Below, piece by piece: positions 3,001 through 30,445 of a DNA stretch of 33,377 nucleotides. The translations under genes and the position numbers were made by a program. This DNA comes from Nanobdellota archaeon. Its GTDB lineage: Archaea > Nanobdellota > Nanobdellia > Woesearchaeales > WJIZ01. The notes under the pieces were generated by a model. The model searched no databases. It saw only the letters and a list, made by a program, of their open reading frames with translations, and had not been told where the DNA came from. How positions within the stretch are numbered: the stretch's first letter is position 1; the number at the start of each line of letters is the position of its first letter. The stretch is from NCBI GenBank assembly GCA_023140175.1, contig JAGLMD010000019.1:1-33377 (forward strand). The letters run 5' to 3'.

Positions 3001-4641
3001 AACTGCTCATTGGTAATAAATGGAGAGATAAATCAGACAAACACAACAATAATTGAAAGCACGCAAAATAACTTTACAATCTACAATTTAAATGAAGGAG
3101 AATATAACTGGACTATCAATTGTACAGATACAGTTGGAAATATAGGGAGTAATGGAATCAGGACATTATACATTGACTGGACCAGCCCGACAGTAAGTAT
3201 CACAACAAACAATAACACATGGTTCAATGACCCTACTCCAGAAATATCATTTAATATAATAGATAACTTAGACCCTGCACTTAATTACACATTCTATATC
3301 GATTACACAACCCAAAGTACAAATGGCACTGCTGCTTCAAATACAATTAGTTCTGATAATCTATCTAGTTTAAAGAACGGCACTTATGTGATAATTTTAG
3401 AGGCATGGGATGAGATTAATGCAAAGGTAAATTCTACCCCAATTACTATCTACATTGACACTGTCAAGCCAGCCATAACACTACAGAACCCGGAAAATAA
3501 TAGCAACACAACCCAAAATATTGACTTTAATTTTACAGTGACAGATAACATGGATACAAACATGGCTTGTAATCTAACTATAGACGGTAAAGTAAATAAA
3601 AGCAATATTCAGGCTGAAAATGGCAGCATAACAAATATTACAGTATTAGGCATACCCAATGGTTACCATAATTGGAGTATTGCATGTATAGATAACGCCA
3701 GCAACACACAAACAAGCACTAGTTGGTACTTCAACGTCACCCCCCCAGATCTGTTCATTAATGGAACAGAAATTGATTTTAATAATACCTCCCCAAGAGA
3801 AGGAGAGAATATCACAATTAATGCAGCAATAAGAAACATTGGCACTGCTGATGCAGGCAATGTCATAGTGCAGTTCTTTGATGGTGATCCGGATAATGGA
3901 GGAACACAGATTGAAGGAGATAAAACAATAAATGTAGGATATGGCTCATATGTCGTTACTAACGTTACGTGGATTGCAGGTATTGGAACCCATTATATCT
4001 TTGTAAAGATAGACCCGTATGATTCCATTATAGAACTGGATGAAGACAACAATAAGGCCAATAGAAGCATAACAATTAGCTCATGGCACACTGTTTATGG
4101 ACGAAACGTTGGCGATTTAGTAATAAGGGATCTATCAAATAGGACAGTATTCAGTTGGTATGTCTCAAATGCATCCTCAGGAAATGTATTTGCTGCTGAT
4201 TATGATTCCTCTATAACCTGGTCAAATTTAACTGCTATTGGTAGAAATATTTCTGGCAGTATTATGATAGATGACTTTGAAGAAATCGACACTGTATTGA
4301 ACAGTACAGGTTATATTGACTCAGTAAACAGAACATACACTGTTAATAGCACATCCAAAAATACTGCTTCTTTCATTATCTTTACCAGTACCATAGCTAA
4401 CATCTCTATCGCCAATTCTACAAACACATCCAACTTCATAACAGGAATCCTATGGGATAAAAGCGATGACACAAACAGCCAATATAATGGCACCCAGGAC
4501 ATAGTTTTTGCAAGTAAAATAAACCCGGATAAGCAGGGCAAATATGGCATTTATGATTATGAGATAAGAGTACCATCAGAACTTAAGAAATACAAGACAA
4601 CGAATATCCAGTCTGTTGTATTTTACGCTGAACTAAGGTGA
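1..4641 (+). CDS. Giant secreted Ig-like repeat surface protein (adhesin/S-layer-like), 5' truncated by the window edge; alternating Ig-like modules, CARDB-like domain, then a C-terminal domain shared with the small A proteins
   Basis: Frame is open to base 1 (ETNPEIVLNHPGEG...), so the GTG at 19 is not the real start. Repeats of the type 'FNFTVTDNMDxxLxCNLTLDGKVNNT...HYWNVTCWDNASNSNTS' and 'WNNxGNITFxYxxSDxxGIANCSLIxxGxxNxTNTT...WxxNCTDxxGxxG...RTxYIDxTxP'. DLFINGTEIDFNNTSPREGENITINAAIRN...DEDNNKANRSI resembles CARDB. Stop TGA at 4639-4641. Confidence 0.9.
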   Translation, partial: ETNPEIVLNHPGEGETIENSTIDFNFTVTDNMDTELNCNITLDGKINNTESITAANGTPETYSISGLSDGIHYWNITCIDEASNSNISLTYNFTAGQPPSITLVEPEQEYWNNDGNISFIYYVSDNNGLTNCSLIIDEVFNKTNETTLTNNANNTINLTGINEGTYNWSINCTDTSGNIGSSSTARTFYVDKTKPTVNLSRPESGAVISGYAADLNFTVIDNMDSSLECNLTLDGSVQNSNPISADNGSITHYQASAIEDGTHYWNVTCWDNASNSNTSLTWNFEALVPPIVSLISPPDWHLNSTANITFFYNVTDLSGIANCSLIFNGELNKTNSTTVLVNSLNNFTLDNIEEGIHTWTVNCTDNTGLEGTGTARTIYIDKTPPDISLDYPANNSLENMASFSFNFTVTDNVAADLECNLTLNGKVNNTIPISAANGTVTAYQITDVYDGIYSWNVTCWDNLSNTNTSETWNFTVGVAPNATLLTPVNETWFSTDNVTVTYNASDLFGVANCSLYFDGSLNQTNTTIQNHGSNNFTLANMGEGAHTWYIRCIDSGNLIGYSEEWTMYIDTVAPEPFIRTANGTNFTDSAPEIEFNITDGLSPTINYTFIIDYTILNTNGTAAANVTTYDNLSNLDDGTYNITLLAIDKVGNKKNSSTIHIRIDTQAPAISIQNPGIDEVLGFTIYLQTTISDDGIGLDQASYTLYNSSGYYYQNGSLNSSDSFDAQWDSRNDINDADDTIYVYFNITANDTLGNTNSQVIRFIVDNKNPSITFTYPDGNYVNSNFNLSILIQNDHLNISYYNITDRYGNLKDNNSNNSIGWATFSWTDLINITDTGKYPDGYYNITVYANDSVGNNRTSSNFFIIDRVAPAITLEMPIGGYNTSTTSITFNFTVNDSLDGNLTCNLSIDGVVMPGHNEFNAENASTINRTVNGLSQGTQYWNVTCWDDAGNINVSLTRQFTVDTSSPTISLAEPEDNYWNNTGNITFIYTPSDTYTSIANCSLVINGEINQTNTTIIESTQNNFTIYNLNEGEYNWTINCTDTVGNIGSNGIRTLYIDWTSPTVSITTNNNTWFNDPTPEISFNIIDNLDPALNYTFYIDYTTQSTNGTAASNTISSDNLSSLKNGTYVIILEAWDEINAKVNSTPITIYIDTVKPAITLQNPENNSNTTQNIDFNFTVTDNMDTNMACNLTIDGKVNKSNIQAENGSITNITVLGIPNGYHNWSIACIDNASNTQTSTSWYFNVTPPDLFINGTEIDFNNTSPREGENITINAAIRNIGTADAGNVIVQFFDGDPDNGGTQIEGDKTINVGYGSYVVTNVTWIAGIGTHYIFVKIDPYDSIIELDEDNNKANRSITISSWHTVYGRNVGDLVIRDLSNRTVFSWYVSNASSGNVFAADYDSSITWSNLTAIGRNISGSIMIDDFEEIDTVLNSTGYIDSVNRTYTVNSTSKNTASFIIFTSTIANISIANSTNTSNFITGILWDKSDDTNSQYNGTQDIVFASKINPDKQGKYGIYDYEIRVPSELKKYKTTNIQSVVFYAELR

Positions 4642-7600
4642 AATTAAACAAAATAATTTGGACTAGTATGATTTTACTAATTATATCTATGTCAATTGGA
4701 TTGAATAGCTCTGCCAGTACAATAACTATAGATAAGAACCAATATACAATAGGAAATGTTGTCGAGATAGATCTTGGGCTTTCAGATTATACAAATATAT
4801 ACCTTTCAATTATTTCTGATTCTGAAGTATATCGGTTCTTAGGTATTCCGGAAAACCCTGTAAAATTCATTCCGAAAACAATAGGCAATTATTCAATAAA
4901 ACTATTCAATCTGTCAAATAACAGTTTAATTTCTATTTATAATTTCAATGTAGAAGCGCCTGCAGAAACAGAAGAAGAAAAAGAAGAGAATAAAGAGGAA
5001 AACAAAAGCAAAGAAGGATTGGAACAAAGGATTATCAAAACAATAAATATTTCATCCATAAAAGAAGATATACTAAATAAAAACAAAACAGCAAAATCAG
5101 ATACAACAAACACAACTAAAGAAAATGTCGCAGTCTTTACTGATAAGATAAACTATACATTAGGAGAAAAGATTATTATTAGGATAGAGCCAAAAACAGA
5201 GCACTATCATCAATTATACATAAGTTCTGAAGACAGCACCTATAAATTCTTAGGAATCCCGGAAAAAGAACTAACATTTATCCCAAAAAATAGCGGAAAA
5301 TATTATATTGAATTAAGAGATGATACTAAATTACTATCTTATTATGAATTCACCATAATCCAAGATAACACAGAAAACCCACCCATAAACAGCTTAGCAG
5401 ACCTTAAAGAAAAAATAGCTGAAATAACTAAATATACAAAAACAAAAAAACCAGAATTAAGACCAATTAGAAATCACTTTAAACCAGATGAAGATCCAAC
5501 CTTCAATTTCGAATTTGAAAAAACAAAAAATCAAACAAAGCCAGCAATATTTAGTACACTATCTTACCCTAAAAAACAAACTGGAAAATGGGAATCAGAT
5601 GAAGAGACTATAAAAACCAGGATTCTTGATAGTAAAAATAGATTAACGTCTTTAACAACTGAAATTGAAGAAGTAGATGATGGAAAATTTAAGATATCTA
5701 TACAAGAAGAAAGAGCATTCAGGCCCGGACTTTATTTCTTAGAGATTAACTTTTCAGGAAGCGGCGAAGACACAATAATAAAGCAGAATTTCACATGGGG
5801 AGTTTTAGCAATTAACACCCATAAGAGCATTTATCTTGAAAATGAACTGGCTGATATCGGTATAGCTGTCCTGGATAATAATGGAAAAATGGTCTGTGAT
5901 GCAAATGTTACTCTGGAGATTACAGACCCAGCTGGTATTAAAACAACCTTAACCACTCCCCAAGATATTATTGTTACAGAAGCATGTAGAATATATGATA
6001 TAACACAAAGACCAGATTATTATACAAACTATAGTATCAACTCCGCAGGCACCTATTTGATAAACCTAACTGCCATAACAAAAGATGGAACATGGAACAT
6101 ACAAGATAATTTCTCTGTTAGTGAAAATGTTGATTTTGATGTCAGCAGAGGCATTCCTCAGACAAGGATTTATCCTGCTGTTAATTATATTATGAACATA
6201 TCCATCAAAGCAGATAAAGGCCATAATGGCATTATTAATGAATATGTTCCAGCTAGTTTTGATATATCACTTTATCAGGGAATGACAATAACAACTATCG
6301 GAGATACAAAGATATTAAGCTGGGATGTAAACTTAAAAGCAGGAGATACAATAAGTCTGGCTTATGAATATGATGCTCCTGATGTAAGTCCGGAATTCTA
6401 TCTCCTGGGCAGGCTAAATATTGGTTCCTGGGAAGAAGCAAGATATTGGCAGATTGCTTCAGATGCAGCAAATGGTCAGCTAGAAGACACCCTTTTTAGC
6501 TGTGAAAAAAGTATTTTAGCAGTAGGAGAAAGAACTAATTGTACTGGTGTATACGAAGAAACAGCTAACAAAGTAGAAACTTGGATAGTATGGCTGGAAG
6601 ATGATGCTGTCCAAATTACAAGAGACGACTGTCTTGGAGATGATTTCAAAATCACTGATGTAGATCTCACAACAGATAATACTGAATGCAACAGCGAATT
6701 AGACGGAGCAGTGACATGTACTGATTGGGGAAAACAAGTGGCTAACCAATATATAAGATGGGAGATTGAAGCGTGTCTAGCAGACGTTGACAATCAAATA
6801 ATAACTGCTGCCTCAAGCTCTACCCAAGGTACTTTTGTTCTTGACAATGTTTCTGTAATAGAAACAAAAGCAGCAGATTATAGCATCAACATCTCAATAA
6901 ACGGCAACCCCAACACAGATAATACAATAGATTACATAACAAACGCAACCATCAATGGTACATGTGGAGCTCAGGCAATTACTTGTTATCTTTATGGAAA
7001 TGTATCCGGAACAATGGAAATGCTCGCATCCGACAATACCCTGCCCTTTGTTGTAAGATATAATGCTTCTATACCAGCAGGATCTTATACATTCCAGGTC
7101 AATAGCACAAATAACATAACAGGAAGAACAAATTATCTTACTGTAAATAAAGCAGGCTCATCTATTCAATGCTTGATCAATGGCAGCCAATCTAATTTCG
7201 GGCCGTATAGATATCCCTTTGATGTAAATGTAACCGCGAACTTAGTAACTCCTGCTGCAAAAACAGCCAACATATCAATAGATAGCTTTGTAAATAATAG
7301 TGGCAGTTCTCCTTTAATACAGATAACTACAATAAACAAAGGCGGAAATTTCACAGCAAACTGCTCTTTTGACGGAAATCAAAATTATAGCAGCATTTCA
7401 GAAAGCTTTTGGATCTATTCTAATTTTGCTCCCTATTGGTCACAGAATAAAAGCAATGACACAGCAATATATCAGGGAGAAGATATCAATCTAAGTGTTG
7501 AATGGGGAGATGATTATGGCTTAAGTCATTATATTTTTGGCACCAACTTATCGGGTTCTTTAGTTAATAGTTCACCAATTTTGTTCACAGGCAGCCCTGA

Positions 7601-10600
7601 AACCACATGGAATACAAGTATTATAAATCATACTCCTGGTATTGTTATTGGATGGCAATTTTTTGCAAACGATTCATATGATGCCTGGAATCAAACAGAT
7701 ATTTTTTCATTTACTGTGCTGGGTATAAGATGGAACGATACAGCTGCTCTTGAAATGGGATTAATTGAAGTAGGAGACCATATCCTGGACTATAAAGAGA
7801 TATTATCATATGGCACTAATGTTAATGTGCACGTAGATTGTTCCGGCAGCTGCACTGAAATTACTGATGATTTTCCTGATACAATAATTATGAATGATGA
7901 AGACACCATAACAGTAACATTTGATTGCTCTTCAAACAAAGAGGGAAGCTATTCAGCAAATTTTTCAGTATATTCCAACACAGACACCATATTAGATATC
8001 ATAACGGTTAATTGTACTGTTAAAGATCAAACAGCCCCATATTGGCAGGATAATGTGGCCTATCCCGCCTCACCAATAAATTATTCACCAGGACAGAAAT
8101 ACCAATTTAATGTAACCTGGAATGACAATACGGGTGTTGCTAATGTAACCATTGAACATAATTTTACAGGAATACTAAAGAATTATAGCGTCGATAAGGA
8201 TGGAAATGTTTATTACTATGATATTTATGATTTAAGTGTTGGAAGCTATGTCTGGAGATATTTTGCTAATGACAGCACAGGCAATTTAAATCTGACAGAT
8301 CAATGGATTTATGCAGTAAATAAGAGTGATTCATTTGTAAATCTTACATTGAATGGTTCTGATGATGATATATATATCCTGCCGGGAGAAGAAGTCAATA
8401 TCACTGGCAGATTACTCAAACCAGCTAATGGCTTCCTGCAAATATTTGAGAATGGCATCCCAATTTACAATGGTAATGATTTAATAAGTAATATTAGGGC
8501 ATACCCTGCAGGAGGAAACTACAATATAACTTTGGTATATGAAAACAGTAATTATACAAATAGTACAGATTCCCTTTTCGTCTATGTTCAGGACTTTGCA
8601 CCGCCCATTATTAATTTAAATTATCCTGAAAATAATTCATATCTATCAGTATATAATATTACATTTAATTTTACTCTCAGTGACAATGTTGGATTGAAAA
8701 ACGCAACATTATGGGCAAATTTTTCTGGCACTTGGCAGGAGAACGAAACCAACCAAACTGGATTGATTAACGGAGCATCGAATTTCATTAATGTTAGCTG
8801 GCTTGCAGAAGGGCAGTACATATGGAACGTTTTAGCATATGATACATCAGGCAATAGTAATTTTTCTGTTTCAAATTTTACATTAATAATTGACAGGACT
8901 CCTCCAGCAATTGAATTTATAGCTCCAACGCCGGTAAATAATAGTAACCAAACAGGCAGTGCAGCCATAATTAATGTTACTCATTCAGAATATCATCCGG
9001 ATAGCATAACACTATATTGGAATGGCACAAATGAAACATACAGGTACTCTGGAGGTTGCACTAATATTACTAAAAATAACTTAGAAGATGGCACATACAC
9101 ATATTATGTATGGATTAATGATTCAGCAGGAAACAGTAATCAGACCGAAACATACACACTAACAAAAGATTCAACACCTCCCTCCCTATTTTTAGTGTCG
9201 CCATTTGACAATAGATGGAATTCCAGCAGCTTGATAAAATTCGAATACAATGTCTCTGATAATATTATGGGTGTAAATAACTGTAGTCTTGTAATGAATA
9301 TTATAGATAAAGCCAGTGATGGAACACTTACAGGATCCTATACCAGTTCTGAAGGGGATTATACAAACTTAACTTATAATGATAATTCTTATTGGTATGT
9401 TGGAAGTGATGCACCATTTGCAGTAATAGATGCATTTGCTGAAGTGGCGTTTAATCTAAGCTCATTAATAATAGATGAAAATGATGTTTCTGGTATAAAC
9501 TTTTCATTAAACTATTGCCATAGCAGAGAAACCATTTGCAATGGAAATAATGCAACTGGAAATGCAGAAATCGGCCAAAATGTTTCAGTTTATAATTATT
9601 CTTCTGGAAAGTGGGTAACTTTAGGGCATCTTAATTTTGGCAATGGGGGAAATGAAACTAACTCATCCTATTCTGCAAAAGGAACTATGGGCGATTTTAT
9701 CAATGACAGCAGTAAAGAAGTTAAGGCCAGGTTTAGGGTGCAGTTTGCAAATCAGAATCCGGGTTCTGCCAGCTTCTTGGTTATGGATCTCTCTTCCATC
9801 ATAGTTACAGCTGGAAAAACAAATAATACTGTTCAGGAAGGAATATTACAATATTTTGAACGAGATCTTCCCGATGGATCACATGATTGGAGTATCCACT
9901 GTTATGATATTTTAGGAAATGTGAATATATCAGAAACAAGAACTATTAATATTGATACAGTCACTCCAACAAAAGTAACATTACTAAGTCCACCAGATAA
10001 CACCACCTCAAATAACCAAAATCCCCTGCTAAATTGGACACAAACAACAGAAAATAACTTCGCTAATTATACTATACATGTAGATAATGATCAAAGCTTT
10101 TCCTCAATAGATCATATATACTATACCTACCAGATCGATAATACAAGCTTCCAGGTTGCAGATACATGGCTTAATAAAAACCATTGGTATTGGCGTGTCA
10201 TAGCATACGATAAAGCAGGAAATAGCAATATATCCGAATTTTTTAATTATACCGTTGATATAGATGCTCCAGAACTAACCTTAATCACAGAGAACAATAC
10301 TTATAGCAATACATTAACTAATACTATTCAATATAGTGTCAATGATTTTGTTAATGTAAGCAATTGCAGCTTATCTATAAACAACAAGCATAACCAAACA
10401 GATAAATCAATCATAAGAGGGATTACACAAAGCTTTATAGTTGATTTCTCAGAAGAGCAAAGCTTCTACTGGAATATCAATTGTACAGATCTTGCAGGCA
10501 ACATAAATGTCTCAGAAACAAGGCTTTTCACTATAGATATCTCTTCCCCATTAGCATTCAACATTAATTTTCCAAAAAACAATACAAACACAAAGAACCA

Positions 10601-13511
10601 GACCCCCTCTCTCAATTGGTCAAACTCTTCTGACATTAATTTCGCTAACTATACCCTATTAATAGACGACAGCTCAGATTTCACCTCCCCCCTTAGATAC
10701 TATACCTACAATGAGACTAACACATCCTATGACCTCACTTCTCCATTAGCAGATAATATATGGTATTGGCGTGTAATAGCACATGATAAAGCAGGCAATA
10801 CCAGAAATTCAACAGATGACTTTGTATATATAGTTGATACTGCCGCTCCAAATGATTTCAATCTATATCTTCCTTCAAACAACACAGCATCCGCAAATAA
10901 CACCCCTTTCCTGAATTGGACCCAAAGCAGTGATGATTATTTCACAAATTATACTATTTATGTTGATGATAATAGGAGCTTCAGCTCTATCAATTTCACT
11001 TACTATACATTCAATAGTACCAATAATTCATATAGTGTAACTGCACCATGGACAAACAACACCATCTGGTATTGGCGAGTCATAGCATATGATATAGCAG
11101 GAAACATAAAGAATTCTACAGATATTTTTGTTTACATAACAGACAATCGCCCGCCTGTTATTAATTTATCTGCCCCTGGCAATGATTCAGAACAAAAATC
11201 TTCTGTTATAAATTTTGAATTTAACGTGACTGATCTTAGTTATATCTCAAATTGCAGTTTAATAATCGATGGACAAGTAAGAAAAACTGAGACAAGCATA
11301 CAAAAGAATGTGCTCAACACCATAACAGGCACATTCACAAATGGTTATTATGACTGGAGCATCAACTGCACAGATGCTGCAGGAAACATAAATGAATCAG
11401 AGACAAGAAGACTTAATATAAATGTAACACTGCCCCAATATAGATTTTATGAGAGTTGGTTCCAAAATGAATTATCTTCTGCCAACATAAATCTCTCGAC
11501 ACAGATAGATGGTACACAAAATACTATAATACTAAATGATATCATCGGTTTAAATAATTTCAATAATGCTACACTCTCAGTTGCAAATATTAGCAAACAG
11601 GGATTTTTGATACCTGCCAGCTCAACTATAACATTCAGTAGTTTTATGGATGCACAGAGCCCTGGCTCAGGCTTTCTTACTTGGGAAATATATAAAGTAA
11701 ATTCCTCTGGAGAATATCTCATCTGCCAGATAGGAGACAATGCTGGAACCGCCCCCCCTGCAGTTGAGATAGATAGCAACCAAGACAAACAATATATAGG
11801 CTCCTGCACATCCCCTGCATCAAGCACATTCCTTTCAGTTGATGACAGCTTCAAATTAGTTACTAACTTAAACAGCCTGTCAGCCAAAGACTATACAAAA
11901 TATGTTGATGACCTTAATACATATGTAGAGATACAGGGATATGCATTAGGAAATTTAACAGTCACTTTAGTAGAGCCAGGTTCTGATCCAAAACCAGGAG
12001 AAGGAGAGTATCTTAATTTATCCTGCCTCTTAAATTGCGAGCTGGGCTATTGCCTTGAAACAAACGTTTATGCTCAATTCAACACATCAAAAGAAGATTG
12101 GAAAGACATCTCAACAGACCAATTAGACAATATCATTCTTAACATAAGCCAAAATAATCCTGTTGTCTTAGGAATAATCAACACAACAACAGACGGAAAT
12201 TTCTCCTTATTAGCAAATAACGTATCAGAGGATAACAATATAAGGTGCTTTGCCGCATCTACATATGCAGATGCAATAAGTGATTATCAAAATGTCAGTA
12301 TTTTAGATAAGACAGCTCCAAATATCTCTCTGGTAAATCCGATAGAAGCTTATTCTGGAGCACCACAAACTATAACATTCAGCTACATCCCAAAAGACGC
12401 TCATTTAAAAAATTGCAGCTTATATGGAAATTTCTCAGGAATATGGACAATTAATCAAACAAATACAACACTAGTCTCAGGCCAGACAAACTATTTCCAG
12501 CCAGTCTATCTTTCCTATGGAAGCTATATATGGAATGTAAAATGCTATGACACATCTGGAAACTATAACTTCTCATCAGAAAACAGGACAATGATAATAG
12601 CAGGCGATCTTTTCATCAATTCTTCTGGCATTAAATTCAGCAAAGAAAATCCAATTGAGGGCGATAGCATAATGATTAATGCCACAGTACATAATCTTGC
12701 TGATAAAAATGAGACCGATGTCTTAATAAGATTCTATGAGGGTAATCCAGATAATGGAGGAATACAGATTAATAGCGACATTATTGTTAATATCACTGCC
12801 TTAAATAATAAAACAGTCAATGTTAGCTGGACAGCAAAAATAGGGAGCTTTGATTTCTTTGTCAAAGTTGATCCTGAAGACAATATAATTGAATCTGATG
12901 AAAACAACAACAAAGCTAACAATTCTTTATCTATATCTTCATATCATATCTATTATGGTAAAACAATAACAAACGTCCTGTTAGACAATGCTTTCAATAT
13001 GACAGTATTTTCATGGTTTAATGAAACAAATATAACAGGAAATATCTATGTAATAGACTCTGACAGCAGTATAGATTGGACAAGCTTATATGCAATAGGA
13101 AGAAACGATACAAATGGTTTCCAGGTAAATGATTGGGAAGAAGTTGACAGCCTATTAAATATGACCAATCTGACAGATTCTATCAATAATACATATATAC
13201 TAAACAGCCAGCCCAAAAACCTAACTGATTTTATTGTTAGAGGAAGTACAATTTACAATGTTTCTTTTGTCAATAGCACAAATTCATCTGATTTTATAAC
13301 AGGAATCATGTGGGACAGAAGCGATTCTGGAACTAATACATACTATGATGAAAACGAAATGGAAGACCTGGTTTTTGTAACAAAGCTCAATCCCAATAAT
13401 GAGGGAAAATATGGAAATTATGATTACGAGATCAAAATTCCTGCTAATCTAAGAAAATACAGGGTGCCGAATAACTATGACTCGGTTTCGATTTACACAG
13501 AATTAGAATAA
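4638..13511 (+). CDS. Giant (2957 aa) secreted multi-domain surface protein: signal peptide, duplicated N-terminal beta domain, Ig-like and FN3-like repeats, CARDB-like domain, shared C-terminal domain
   Basis: Single long ORF with hydrophobic N-terminus (IIWTSMILLIISMSIGLNSSAS). Start GTG overlaps the stop of the upstream giant ORF (GTGA). C-terminal ~300 aa aligns by eye with the end of the upstream protein. Confidence 0.92.
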   Translation: MKLNKIIWTSMILLIISMSIGLNSSASTITIDKNQYTIGNVVEIDLGLSDYTNIYLSIISDSEVYRFLGIPENPVKFIPKTIGNYSIKLFNLSNNSLISIYNFNVEAPAETEEEKEENKEENKSKEGLEQRIIKTINISSIKEDILNKNKTAKSDTTNTTKENVAVFTDKINYTLGEKIIIRIEPKTEHYHQLYISSEDSTYKFLGIPEKELTFIPKNSGKYYIELRDDTKLLSYYEFTIIQDNTENPPINSLADLKEKIAEITKYTKTKKPELRPIRNHFKPDEDPTFNFEFEKTKNQTKPAIFSTLSYPKKQTGKWESDEETIKTRILDSKNRLTSLTTEIEEVDDGKFKISIQEERAFRPGLYFLEINFSGSGEDTIIKQNFTWGVLAINTHKSIYLENELADIGIAVLDNNGKMVCDANVTLEITDPAGIKTTLTTPQDIIVTEACRIYDITQRPDYYTNYSINSAGTYLINLTAITKDGTWNIQDNFSVSENVDFDVSRGIPQTRIYPAVNYIMNISIKADKGHNGIINEYVPASFDISLYQGMTITTIGDTKILSWDVNLKAGDTISLAYEYDAPDVSPEFYLLGRLNIGSWEEARYWQIASDAANGQLEDTLFSCEKSILAVGERTNCTGVYEETANKVETWIVWLEDDAVQITRDDCLGDDFKITDVDLTTDNTECNSELDGAVTCTDWGKQVANQYIRWEIEACLADVDNQIITAASSSTQGTFVLDNVSVIETKAADYSINISINGNPNTDNTIDYITNATINGTCGAQAITCYLYGNVSGTMEMLASDNTLPFVVRYNASIPAGSYTFQVNSTNNITGRTNYLTVNKAGSSIQCLINGSQSNFGPYRYPFDVNVTANLVTPAAKTANISIDSFVNNSGSSPLIQITTINKGGNFTANCSFDGNQNYSSISESFWIYSNFAPYWSQNKSNDTAIYQGEDINLSVEWGDDYGLSHYIFGTNLSGSLVNSSPILFTGSPETTWNTSIINHTPGIVIGWQFFANDSYDAWNQTDIFSFTVLGIRWNDTAALEMGLIEVGDHILDYKEILSYGTNVNVHVDCSGSCTEITDDFPDTIIMNDEDTITVTFDCSSNKEGSYSANFSVYSNTDTILDIITVNCTVKDQTAPYWQDNVAYPASPINYSPGQKYQFNVTWNDNTGVANVTIEHNFTGILKNYSVDKDGNVYYYDIYDLSVGSYVWRYFANDSTGNLNLTDQWIYAVNKSDSFVNLTLNGSDDDIYILPGEEVNITGRLLKPANGFLQIFENGIPIYNGNDLISNIRAYPAGGNYNITLVYENSNYTNSTDSLFVYVQDFAPPIINLNYPENNSYLSVYNITFNFTLSDNVGLKNATLWANFSGTWQENETNQTGLINGASNFINVSWLAEGQYIWNVLAYDTSGNSNFSVSNFTLIIDRTPPAIEFIAPTPVNNSNQTGSAAIINVTHSEYHPDSITLYWNGTNETYRYSGGCTNITKNNLEDGTYTYYVWINDSAGNSNQTETYTLTKDSTPPSLFLVSPFDNRWNSSSLIKFEYNVSDNIMGVNNCSLVMNIIDKASDGTLTGSYTSSEGDYTNLTYNDNSYWYVGSDAPFAVIDAFAEVAFNLSSLIIDENDVSGINFSLNYCHSRETICNGNNATGNAEIGQNVSVYNYSSGKWVTLGHLNFGNGGNETNSSYSAKGTMGDFINDSSKEVKARFRVQFANQNPGSASFLVMDLSSIIVTAGKTNNTVQEGILQYFERDLPDGSHDWSIHCYDILGNVNISETRTINIDTVTPTKVTLLSPPDNTTSNNQNPLLNWTQTTENNFANYTIHVDNDQSFSSIDHIYYTYQIDNTSFQVADTWLNKNHWYWRVIAYDKAGNSNISEFFNYTVDIDAPELTLITENNTYSNTLTNTIQYSVNDFVNVSNCSLSINNKHNQTDKSIIRGITQSFIVDFSEEQSFYWNINCTDLAGNINVSETRLFTIDISSPLAFNINFPKNNTNTKNQTPSLNWSNSSDINFANYTLLIDDSSDFTSPLRYYTYNETNTSYDLTSPLADNIWYWRVIAHDKAGNTRNSTDDFVYIVDTAAPNDFNLYLPSNNTASANNTPFLNWTQSSDDYFTNYTIYVDDNRSFSSINFTYYTFNSTNNSYSVTAPWTNNTIWYWRVIAYDIAGNIKNSTDIFVYITDNRPPVINLSAPGNDSEQKSSVINFEFNVTDLSYISNCSLIIDGQVRKTETSIQKNVLNTITGTFTNGYYDWSINCTDAAGNINESETRRLNINVTLPQYRFYESWFQNELSSANINLSTQIDGTQNTIILNDIIGLNNFNNATLSVANISKQGFLIPASSTITFSSFMDAQSPGSGFLTWEIYKVNSSGEYLICQIGDNAGTAPPAVEIDSNQDKQYIGSCTSPASSTFLSVDDSFKLVTNLNSLSAKDYTKYVDDLNTYVEIQGYALGNLTVTLVEPGSDPKPGEGEYLNLSCLLNCELGYCLETNVYAQFNTSKEDWKDISTDQLDNIILNISQNNPVVLGIINTTTDGNFSLLANNVSEDNNIRCFAASTYADAISDYQNVSILDKTAPNISLVNPIEAYSGAPQTITFSYIPKDAHLKNCSLYGNFSGIWTINQTNTTLVSGQTNYFQPVYLSYGSYIWNVKCYDTSGNYNFSSENRTMIIAGDLFINSSGIKFSKENPIEGDSIMINATVHNLADKNETDVLIRFYEGNPDNGGIQINSDIIVNITALNNKTVNVSWTAKIGSFDFFVKVDPEDNIIESDENNNKANNSLSISSYHIYYGKTITNVLLDNAFNMTVFSWFNETNITGNIYVIDSDSSIDWTSLYAIGRNDTNGFQVNDWEEVDSLLNMTNLTDSINNTYILNSQPKNLTDFIVRGSTIYNVSFVNSTNSSDFITGIMWDRSDSGTNTYYDENEMEDLVFVTKLNPNNEGKYGNYDYEIKIPANLRKYRVPNNYDSVSIYTELE

Positions 13512-13629
13512 AGCATATTCATCATGCACAAAAATTCCGAAGGAATTTTTGGCACAACAAAATCAAAGATTTTGTGTGCAATTGAGCTTTGCTCAATTCG
13601 CACCCTAGAAATGCGGAGCATTTCTATGG

Positions 13630-13673
13630 CATTTGCGCCTTGCTCCTTTCCCCAAAGGAGTTGGGCGCTTTAT
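13630..13673 (+). repeat. 44-bp exact direct repeat, copy 1 (contains a hairpin)
   Basis: catttgcgccttgctcctttccccaaaggagttgggcgctttat, identical to 13749-13792. Confidence 0.9.
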
Positions 13674-13748
13674 ATTCATCACATTTGCGTCTTTTCCCTT
13701 TTAAAACAAAGGGGAAAGGCGCTTTATGTTCGCAATTTGTGTTCATCA

Positions 13749-13792
13749 CATTTGCGCCTTGCTCCTTTCCCCAAAGGAGTTGGGCGCTTTAT
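13749..13792 (+). repeat. 44-bp exact direct repeat, copy 2
   Basis: Identical to 13630-13673. Confidence 0.9.
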
Positions 13793-13929
13793 GCTCATGT
13801 TTTCATCATGCCTAGAAATGTAAGCGTTTCTATGGCACTTGCGCATTGACACCTTTATCCATATAATAAGAGTTTCTTGCACTTCAGCATCGTCGCCAAT
13901 ATACAAATAGACTACTTGAAAATAATTAC

Positions 13930-13976: not shown

Positions 13977-15296
13977 ATGGTTACTAAATTCATTAGTGGA
14001 TTAATGAAGAAAAAAGGCGAAAAAGTAGACAGTAAAGAGAAGAAAAGCACAGAAGATATTCCTGATGAATTGCCGACACTGGCAGATGAGATAACTGAAG
14101 AGCAAGAAGAAAAAAGCACAGAAGATATTGAAAAAGTAAATGATTTCAAAGAGATTGAAGAGAAACCCGAAGAGGGAGCTAACAAAGTAAAAGACTTTGA
14201 AGAACTGGATGAAAAACCAATAGAGAAAGCTGAAAAAGTAAAAGACTTTGAAGAACTGGATGAAAAACCAATAGAGAAAGCTGAAAACGATTCTGCCCCG
14301 CTCCAACAGCCTGTTGATTCTGAAGCTATAGAACATGAAAAAGTTCCAGAAACAAAAGAAGCCCCAGTCCAGCTTAAACCATTGCCCCCTGAAAAGAGAG
14401 TAGAAGAAGAGAAAAAACAGCATATTAATAATGAAGAAATTGTAGAACAGCCAATTATTGACAAAAAAACAGAAGAGGGTAGAGGCTTTTTCTCAGAAAT
14501 CCTGTCCTTGTCTATAAATCAGGGAATTAACGAAAACATATTAAAGCAGGATCTAACTAAAGGGATGAAAGATTTCTGGTATTTCCATCCACAGCAGAAG
14601 GGAAGGTTTAAGAATAAGGAGCTCCTAAGACATGATATAATTAATGGATTGACTGAATTAAAAAGGCTGGAAGATAGGTGGACAGCCCAAAAAGCATTCT
14701 TAGATGAAGATAAAAGATCTCTTTTTGAGAAGGAAAGAGACATCAAGACTAAAGCAGAAGAACTGCAAAGAACCTTAAGCCAGCTCAAATTTTACGAAGA
14801 TTTACCTGCAAAAAAATTCTTTTGGCTGAAAAATGGCATAGTCATAAAAAATATTTATGAGTTGATGAATTTATTAGAGGTAATGAACAATAGCACATTT
14901 AATCATCATGTAAACGATAACGTAAATGACTTCAGCGAGTGGATAGAAAACAGCGTAGGAAACAAAGAATTAGCAAAAAAGATTGGTTCTGCAAGAACAA
15001 GAGAAGAGATGTCTATTATCCTGGAGAACGCCTTGATAGGAAGCACATATAGAGTAGGGTCTGATGAATATTTCAGGATGTGCAATGGACAGGTAATAAA
15101 GAATATCAAAGAACTGATAACTGCATTGAAAGAGATAAATGAGCCTATTTTCATGACACATGTAAATGAAGAAAAGAATGATTTTGACTTATGGATTAGG
15201 CATGTCTTTAAAAATGAGTATCTCGCAGACAGATTGAAAATAGCAAAATCAAGGGAAGACATGATAAATATTCTGGAAAGTTATTATTATCTATAG
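13977..15296 (+). CDS. Protein with acidic low-complexity N-terminal region and two tandem C-terminal DUF5752-like domains
   Basis: 439 aa. Two copies of 'FxxxNGxVIKNIxELxxxLxxxNxxxFxxHVNxxxNDFxxWIxxxxxNxxLAxxixxAxsrEeMxxILE' at about 14809-15030 and 15062-15290. Confidence 0.8.
   Translation: MVTKFISGLMKKKGEKVDSKEKKSTEDIPDELPTLADEITEEQEEKSTEDIEKVNDFKEIEEKPEEGANKVKDFEELDEKPIEKAEKVKDFEELDEKPIEKAENDSAPLQQPVDSEAIEHEKVPETKEAPVQLKPLPPEKRVEEEKKQHINNEEIVEQPIIDKKTEEGRGFFSEILSLSINQGINENILKQDLTKGMKDFWYFHPQQKGRFKNKELLRHDIINGLTELKRLEDRWTAQKAFLDEDKRSLFEKERDIKTKAEELQRTLSQLKFYEDLPAKKFFWLKNGIVIKNIYELMNLLEVMNNSTFNHHVNDNVNDFSEWIENSVGNKELAKKIGSARTREEMSIILENALIGSTYRVGSDEYFRMCNGQVIKNIKELITALKEINEPIFMTHVNEEKNDFDLWIRHVFKNEYLADRLKIAKSREDMINILESYYYL
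14184..14285 (+). repeat. Two tandem 51-bp units encoding KVKDFEELDEKPIEKAE
   Basis: 14184-14234 and 14235-14285, essentially identical at the DNA level. Confidence 0.85.
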
Positions 15297-29612: not shown

Positions 29613-30266
29613 TCAGGGCTGAATCAAATCATCTCTCGCATCAGCTATAGATTGAATGATATCTATATTATTCAGAACATACGGCACACCAGGATTTAAT
29701 TTCTCTGTCCTCTTAAGATACAATAAAGCCTGCTCTAAATCACGATAATCCGGCTTATCTTCATCTTCAGACTTCCTGAATCTTGCCACATAATTCTGTG
29801 CTAAATCAAAGTTAGCATTAGCATTATCCGGCTCAAGCTGAACAACATTTTCAAAATAAGTAATTGCATTATCAAGATCACCTAATTCAAAATACAAAAC
29901 ACCTATTGAATAATGTGCCTTTGCATAAGAATCATCTATCTCAACCGCCCCCATAAACACATCCAAAGCATTATCATATTCTCCTTTACCATAATAAATC
30001 ACACCAATATTATGATAAGCAGTAATAAATGTTGGTTTAAACTCAACAGCCTTTTCAAACATCTCTAAGGACTCATCAATCATATCCATCCTGAAATATA
30101 GCTTCCCGAGTGTAAAATACAGCAAATAAGGTTTTGACTTTATCTCATCAATTATATATTTTGGATTAATATAAGAGATTACATTTATTTTTGTAGACTC
30201 AGCAAATGCTATCGGTAACATTAAGAAAACTGAGAATAATGCCAAAAATAATATTATTTTTTTCAA
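29613..30266 (-). CDS. Secreted or membrane-tethered TPR-repeat protein
   Basis: Signal peptide MKKIILFLALFSVFLMLPIAFA; TPR units such as 'ITAYHNIGVIYYGKGEYDNALDVFMGAVEIDDSYAKAHYSIGVLYFELGDLDNAITYFENVVQLEPDNANAN'. Confidence 0.88.
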   Translation of the reverse strand: MKKIILFLALFSVFLMLPIAFAESTKINVISYINPKYIIDEIKSKPYLLYFTLGKLYFRMDMIDESLEMFEKAVEFKPTFITAYHNIGVIYYGKGEYDNALDVFMGAVEIDDSYAKAHYSIGVLYFELGDLDNAITYFENVVQLEPDNANANFDLAQNYVARFRKSEDEDKPDYRDLEQALLYLKRTEKLNPGVPYVLNNIDIIQSIADARDDLIQP

Positions 30267-30298
30267 GTTATACTCTATCTTGACTATAAAAAAACCAA

Positions 30299-30308
30299 TA
30301 TTTAAAAG
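30299..30308 (-). promoter_or_regulatory. TATA box for the TPR gene
   Basis: CTTTTAAATA on the minus strand, the same 10-mer as at 13935-13944, ~33 bp upstream of the start codon. Confidence 0.5.
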
Positions 30309-30445
30309 TTTGCTTTTAATAATAAACTAATTAAATGATTAATTAAGTAGTGAATTTTAATACTTAACCACCTAATTTTTTAATTTATAAATAACTTATA
30401 AATGCTTTCTAAAAATCATAAAAGTCATTTTTATCATAAAAAATG

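Follow-up and report, generated by a model that had tools for sequence, protein, structure and literature searches.

The dense array of short hairpins downstream of the giant gene is, in our judgement, probably a nest of small, non-autonomous mobile palindromes together with locally duplicated GC-rich hairpins (13635-13787). The window, that is, the whole stretch of 33,377 nt that was analysed, carries this nest at 13522-13848, beginning 11 nt past the stop codon (13509-13511) of a plus-strand gene that encodes a protein of 2957 aa with Big_13 and CARDB domains (4638-13511). The next gene on the plus strand (13977-15296, 439 aa) is DUF5752-like, and between it and the nest lies an AT-rich TTTTAAATA stretch that looks TATA-like by eye. 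The 439-aa protein contains an ~80-aa C-terminal domain twice (residues ~275-350 and ~360-436), and very large ORFs in many relatives contain this domain as well.

The first-pass annotation had described about nine hairpins; the density of the array holds in both sequence and folding, while the count comes to eight main hairpins, five of them AT-rich (four perfect) and three GC-rich. The perfect hairpins that it had reported, whose 3-nt loops are gaa, aaa, ttt and gga, were all located, four in number, at 13529-13626. Hairpin 1 (13529-13551) reads CAAAAATTCC gaa GGAATTTTTG, and hairpin 2 (13552-13579) reads GCAC-A-ACAAAATC aaa GATTTTGT-GTGC, with a perfect inner stem of 8 bp at 13557-13575 and a 4-bp outer clamp. 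Hairpins 3 and 4 occupy 13580-13632 with the linkers CGCAC and GGCAT, the former being AATTGAGC ttt GCTCAATT (13580-13598) and the latter CCTAGAAATGC gga GCATTTCTATGG (13606-13626). The GC-rich hairpins follow. B1 (GCGCCttgCTCCTTTccccAAAGGAGttGGGCGC, 13635-13668) and B3 (13754-13787) are the same hairpin, each within its own 50-nt unit (13630-13679 and 13749-13798, respectively); the two units are 96% identical at a spacing of 119 nt. Between them lies B2 (13687-13722; GCGTCTTTTCCCTTT taaaac AAAGGGGAAAGGCGC), scored as terminator-like, with the tail TTTATGTT. Finally, hairpin 5 (13811-13835; CCTAGAAATG taag CGTTTCTATGG) is an imperfect, diverged duplicate of hairpin 4, with which it has the right flank GGCAYTTGCGC in common. 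Given this duplicate and the near identity of the B1 and B3 units, the sequence indicates that local duplication took part in the array. No relatives of B1-B3 were found in the genome itself or in 60 relatives.

The comparison with dinucleotide-shuffled controls that the first-pass annotation had called for sets the region clearly apart. The predicted RNA fold of 13505-13860 has an energy of -143.1 kcal/mol, against -85.5 +/- 5.4 in the shuffles (z -10.8), and folding with DNA parameters gives -82.5 against -41.9 +/- 3.9 (z -10.5); in each case 0 of 100 shuffles folded equally well. In a 378-kb sample of this draft genome (184 contigs), which served for the genome-wide folding statistics, the array is the most structured spot (z -9.4, the runner-up reaching -6.3). 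As had also been remarked, the array is richer in GC (0.425) than the sequence before it (0.327), the sequence after it (0.346) and the window as a whole (0.349), and neighbouring outer arms overlap: GGCACA, GTGTGC and CGCAC compete for pairing in the predicted folds.

A search for similar hairpins in the same genome and in relatives, likewise proposed in the first-pass annotation, brought out a dispersed double-hairpin family. BLAST with the array against its own genome returned short relatives on other contigs with the same hairpin-linker-hairpin plan, two of which sat in dinD (Bro-N) genes. The plan of the element is CACT-[hairpin]-GGTG-TGCC-[hairpin]-GAGCAT, ~55-65 nt in length, in which the linkers are conserved and the arms vary with compensation. 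Hairpins 1 and 2 were shown to be one complete copy of it (13522-13580, minus strand), with BLAST relatives in contigs C125, C53 and C48. A covariance model built from 13 copies (R1), partly picked for being hairpins, matched this copy in its own genome with E=1.6e-8; the copy belongs to the training set, so the match is partly by construction. We therefore made a second model (R2) from the six dinD-site inserts alone, chosen by location. Its best match in the 33-kb window under full scoring is 13515-13582 on the minus strand (32.6 bits, E=1.5e-5), and it also picks up other dispersed copies in the genome and in relatives; loci from 11 bacterial genomes and one euryarchaeal genome gave nothing at E<=0.1. 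The E-values of both models are rough. Within the array, clear membership of the family is limited to 13522-13580. Hairpins 3 and 4, matched weakly (R1, E=0.0044 at 13588-13633; R2, E=1), are probably a second, diverged double-hairpin unit, going by these scores and by a linker pattern seen by eye. A second hairpin-dense stretch of the window (30244-30403; AT-rich, GC ~0.2, four hairpins of at least 7 bp) has no significant match to R1 or R2. The window copy interrupts no gene, and no empty site for it was found among the relatives, none of them being close enough.

Empty and filled versions of one and the same site are available in dinD. We compared gene copies from this genome and from three that belong to other families: exactly at ILTxE|ISKATF, six copies in four genomes contain an insert of ~50-60 nt with the plan ACACT-[hairpin]-GGTG-TGCC-[hairpin]-TTAGC (L062:9976-10031; L112 ~640-710; L004:197-259; L119:113-171; L120 ~675-737; L130:828-884). 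The same site is filled in at least one further dinD copy, which comes from a MAG with the label Nanohaloarchaea (L218:3241-3303). Filled and empty sites differ by at most one ambiguous base of target duplication, and arm sequences vary freely even between copies at this one site. On a maximum-likelihood tree of DinD, five changes are required to account for the five filled rows, and well-supported branches force at least four of them; this indicates that the site has been filled or emptied repeatedly, with at least four gains or losses. The dinD copies of the element break the reading frame or add a stop. In some filled genes the downstream half is nevertheless conserved despite the stop or frameshift, which could reflect recent insertion, or else that the insert is spliced out or bypassed. 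Neither of the latter two has to be invoked, since the L004 and L120 copies show decay elsewhere too and the insertions recur; an intron-like reading is possible for L062, L112, L119 and L130. The dinD gene of another genome (G133; L125:830-1000) holds a different insert of ~170 nt with inverted-repeat ends.

Other genes have received the element in frame. In GDT1 of G015 it encodes ~18-20 extra amino acids that are missing in a 72%-identical homologue, and in a DUF4143 ATPase of G019 it is inserted in frame at YYW|KGEIDFVV. Moreover, two genomes (G037 and G103) carry blocks of 95-220 nt, ~97-99% identical, at several places with unrelated flanks; these blocks point to recent spread, and in some genomes the element appears to be mobile to this day. 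We considered and rejected a larger insertion sequence enclosing it, the common blocks being just ~95-220 nt long. Further palindromes were seen alongside the family. A HIT-family gene (L005:1466-1522) has a palindromic insert near its start that keeps the frame, introduces no stop and is accompanied by the short flanking repeat GATTGCATA / GATTGTATA. The genome of the window holds a second, larger family of dispersed palindromes, in which GGAAC-hairpin-GTTC-hairpin-TTTGAATCATT precedes a long stem whose arms are GTCGAGCC/GGCTCGAC (L067:8850-8960, L067:14470-14560 and L003:1510-1620). At L010:1480-1700, three tandem long hairpins (AAAATGAA...TTCATTTT) around AAATC/GATTT-like stems lie immediately ahead of a gene start.

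The element is widespread in the order. R1 finds ~21 distinct sites in the genome of the window. Of 147 Woesearchaeales genomes, 87 have matches at E<=1e-4 (up to 36 each), and five genomes from other orders of the same class contain a few as well. Scanning 85,462 species for a 20-base core gave 19 matches; the double hairpin forms only at those from DPANN, whose records bear the titles Woesearchaeota, Nanoarchaeota and Nanohaloarchaea. Four DPANN genomes yielded 8, 11, 56 and 76 R1 matches, counted on both strands, so that the number of sites is about half of these figures; the 12 genomes with chance cores (11 bacteria and one of the Euryarchaeota, ~27 Mb) yielded none at E<=0.001. Nests with four to five perfect hairpins occur in six other genomes (G077, G037, G103, G005, G019 and G070), and clustering is thus typical of the family. 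In one genome (G117, contig C7:166309-167384), a double-hairpin element and a gene for reverse transcriptase share a strand and are ~400 nt apart.

The inner stems bear on how the perfect arms are kept. Across 65 distinct copies they comprise 926 Watson-Crick cells, seven G-U and six A-C. Covariation reaches 0.469 in the whole 65-copy alignment (0.154 shuffled), an alignment that is fitted to the covariance model, and 0.236 (0.092 shuffled) in the dinD-site inserts alone, which were picked by place. Covariation with almost no wobble suggests that the arms are copied from each other at the DNA level rather than maintained through RNA selection; we leave this at a suggestion because the larger alignment is fitted to its model.

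We weighed several other explanations of the nest. The array might serve the giant gene as a structured 3' UTR or as a cluster of terminators, stopping transcription or protecting the 3' end of the mRNA. Its position just past the stop codon and ahead of the next gene would suit such a role, as would the strength of the RNA fold and four terminator-like matches where shuffles give 0.4 +/- 0.8, the terminator-like patterns falling at B1-B3 only. However, a T-rich tail stands directly past the stem in B2 only. Regions downstream of ten giant-gene homologues in relatives lack the array (with mononucleotide shuffles their z runs from +0.7 to -4.4, compared with -16 here, and none has more than one hairpin), which speaks against a conserved 3' UTR of giant genes, the same element occurs inside unrelated coding genes, and the stems are nearly free of G-U, unlike most selected RNAs. 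We therefore consider this role unlikely, and the structured 3' UTR of the giant mRNA put forward in the first-pass annotation did not hold up. Given that B2 and its neighbours are terminator-like, the nest may still end transcripts here as a by-product. For an abundant ncRNA, another of the options raised, no positive evidence emerged: nothing in Rfam matched above the gathering cut-offs, and the sub-threshold matches (searched to E<=1), a lysine riboswitch at 17.9 bits against a cut-off of 30 and ST7-OT3_1, were taken as chance. A protein-binding or chromosome-organising DNA element would be in keeping with the perfect palindromes dispersed in the genome, but the arm sequences differ freely, even at a single dinD site, and copies interrupt genes; the chromosome-organising role found no positive evidence, and we regard this class of explanation as highly improbable. 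That the array is an assembly artefact, or that its palindromes arose by chance, could be argued from the draft state of the genome. Yet no shuffle folds as well and the element is common to dozens of other genomes; the family being order-wide, we give this explanation almost no credence.

The 'REP-like repeat nest' of the first-pass annotation came closest among its options, and its interpretation is partly supported overall; the marks of REP sequences proper were missing. REP and REPIN are paired palindromes in intergenic clusters that show compensatory changes, carry a GTAG or CGTC tag and are associated with RAYT (PMC3733652, PMC3116915). The present element resembles them in its paired palindromes within intergenic nests and in its inverted doublets with compensatory changes, being near-dyad symmetric so that both strands match. 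In contrast, no GTAG or CGTC tag appears in the 65-copy consensus. In favour of REPs or REPINs moved by a Y1 transposase of the IS200/IS605 type, whether RAYT or another, the element is associated with Y1_Tnp (PF01797) across 147 genomes, with an odds ratio of 2.3 and p 0.024, uncorrected for relatedness. This association is weak, and the domain is missing in 15 of 33 element-rich genomes, including the complete single-contig G016; we thus rejected the Y1 transposase as mobiliser and hold the REP/REPIN reading to be very doubtful. The reverse transcriptase PF00078 was rejected as well, as it shows no association (p 0.70). Eleven element-rich genomes have neither enzyme, and neither is required in the same genome.

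We thus return to the nest of mobile palindromes and to how it could have formed. A putative trans-acting protein would recognise the folded single-strand shape together with the linkers, and insertion would take place between GAR-like and ATNT-like sequences without clear target duplication. New copies would be tolerated in spacers, here from the stop codon to the next promoter, and the nest would also grow by local duplication, as with B1/B3 and hairpins 4/5. The perfect arms would result from copying one arm from the other at the DNA level, perhaps through foldback synthesis or template switching, and any effect on the giant gene, be it on transcription termination or on mRNA stability, would be a by-product. 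More tentatively, and with some doubt on our side, the family could be a shape-recognised mobile element, in which a putative enzyme moves double hairpins of nearly any pairing arms, prefers the dinD site and leaves the arms to be copied mutually.

Comparable elements are known from bacteria and organelles. The double-hairpin elements (DHE) of Allomyces mitochondria and related repetitive hairpin elements (as cited in PMC2800124) are two short hairpins side by side, judged mobile by comparison, with no target duplication reported for those of Allomyces. The likeness is that two adjacent short hairpins form one mobile unit, whereas the element described here resides in archaeal chromosomes and not in a fungal mitochondrial genome, has AT-rich arms and fixed linkers (CACT/GGTG-TGCC/GAGCAT) and returns to a dinD site; we claim no shared sequence. 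Rickettsia palindromic elements (RPE) are ~150 bp long with a conserved encoded peptide, and lie in frame in protein genes as well as between genes (PMC10969869). Ours are likewise small palindromes, found in frame in unrelated genes (GDT1, DUF4143) and in intergenic regions, but they measure ~55-65 nt, have freely variable arms, break the frame in several copies and lack a conserved encoded peptide. Archaeal MITEs from Sulfolobus, Haloquadratum and others are non-autonomous and multicopy (PMC10969869), as is the present element, in which we saw none of the long terminal inverted repeats that derive from an autonomous insertion sequence.

In the open-access papers searched we found no such small mobile palindrome described for this DPANN order. 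The double-hairpin element is therefore apparently new to description, with kindred kinds known in bacteria (REP, RPE) and in organelles (DHE). An order-wide family with repeated insertion at one gene site and with empty homologues makes the mechanism testable by comparison alone: such work could look for the protein that tracks the element, for any strand specificity of insertion, and for the reason why arms covary without wobble intermediates. The element also accounts for odd broken or enlarged proteins in the annotations of these genomes.
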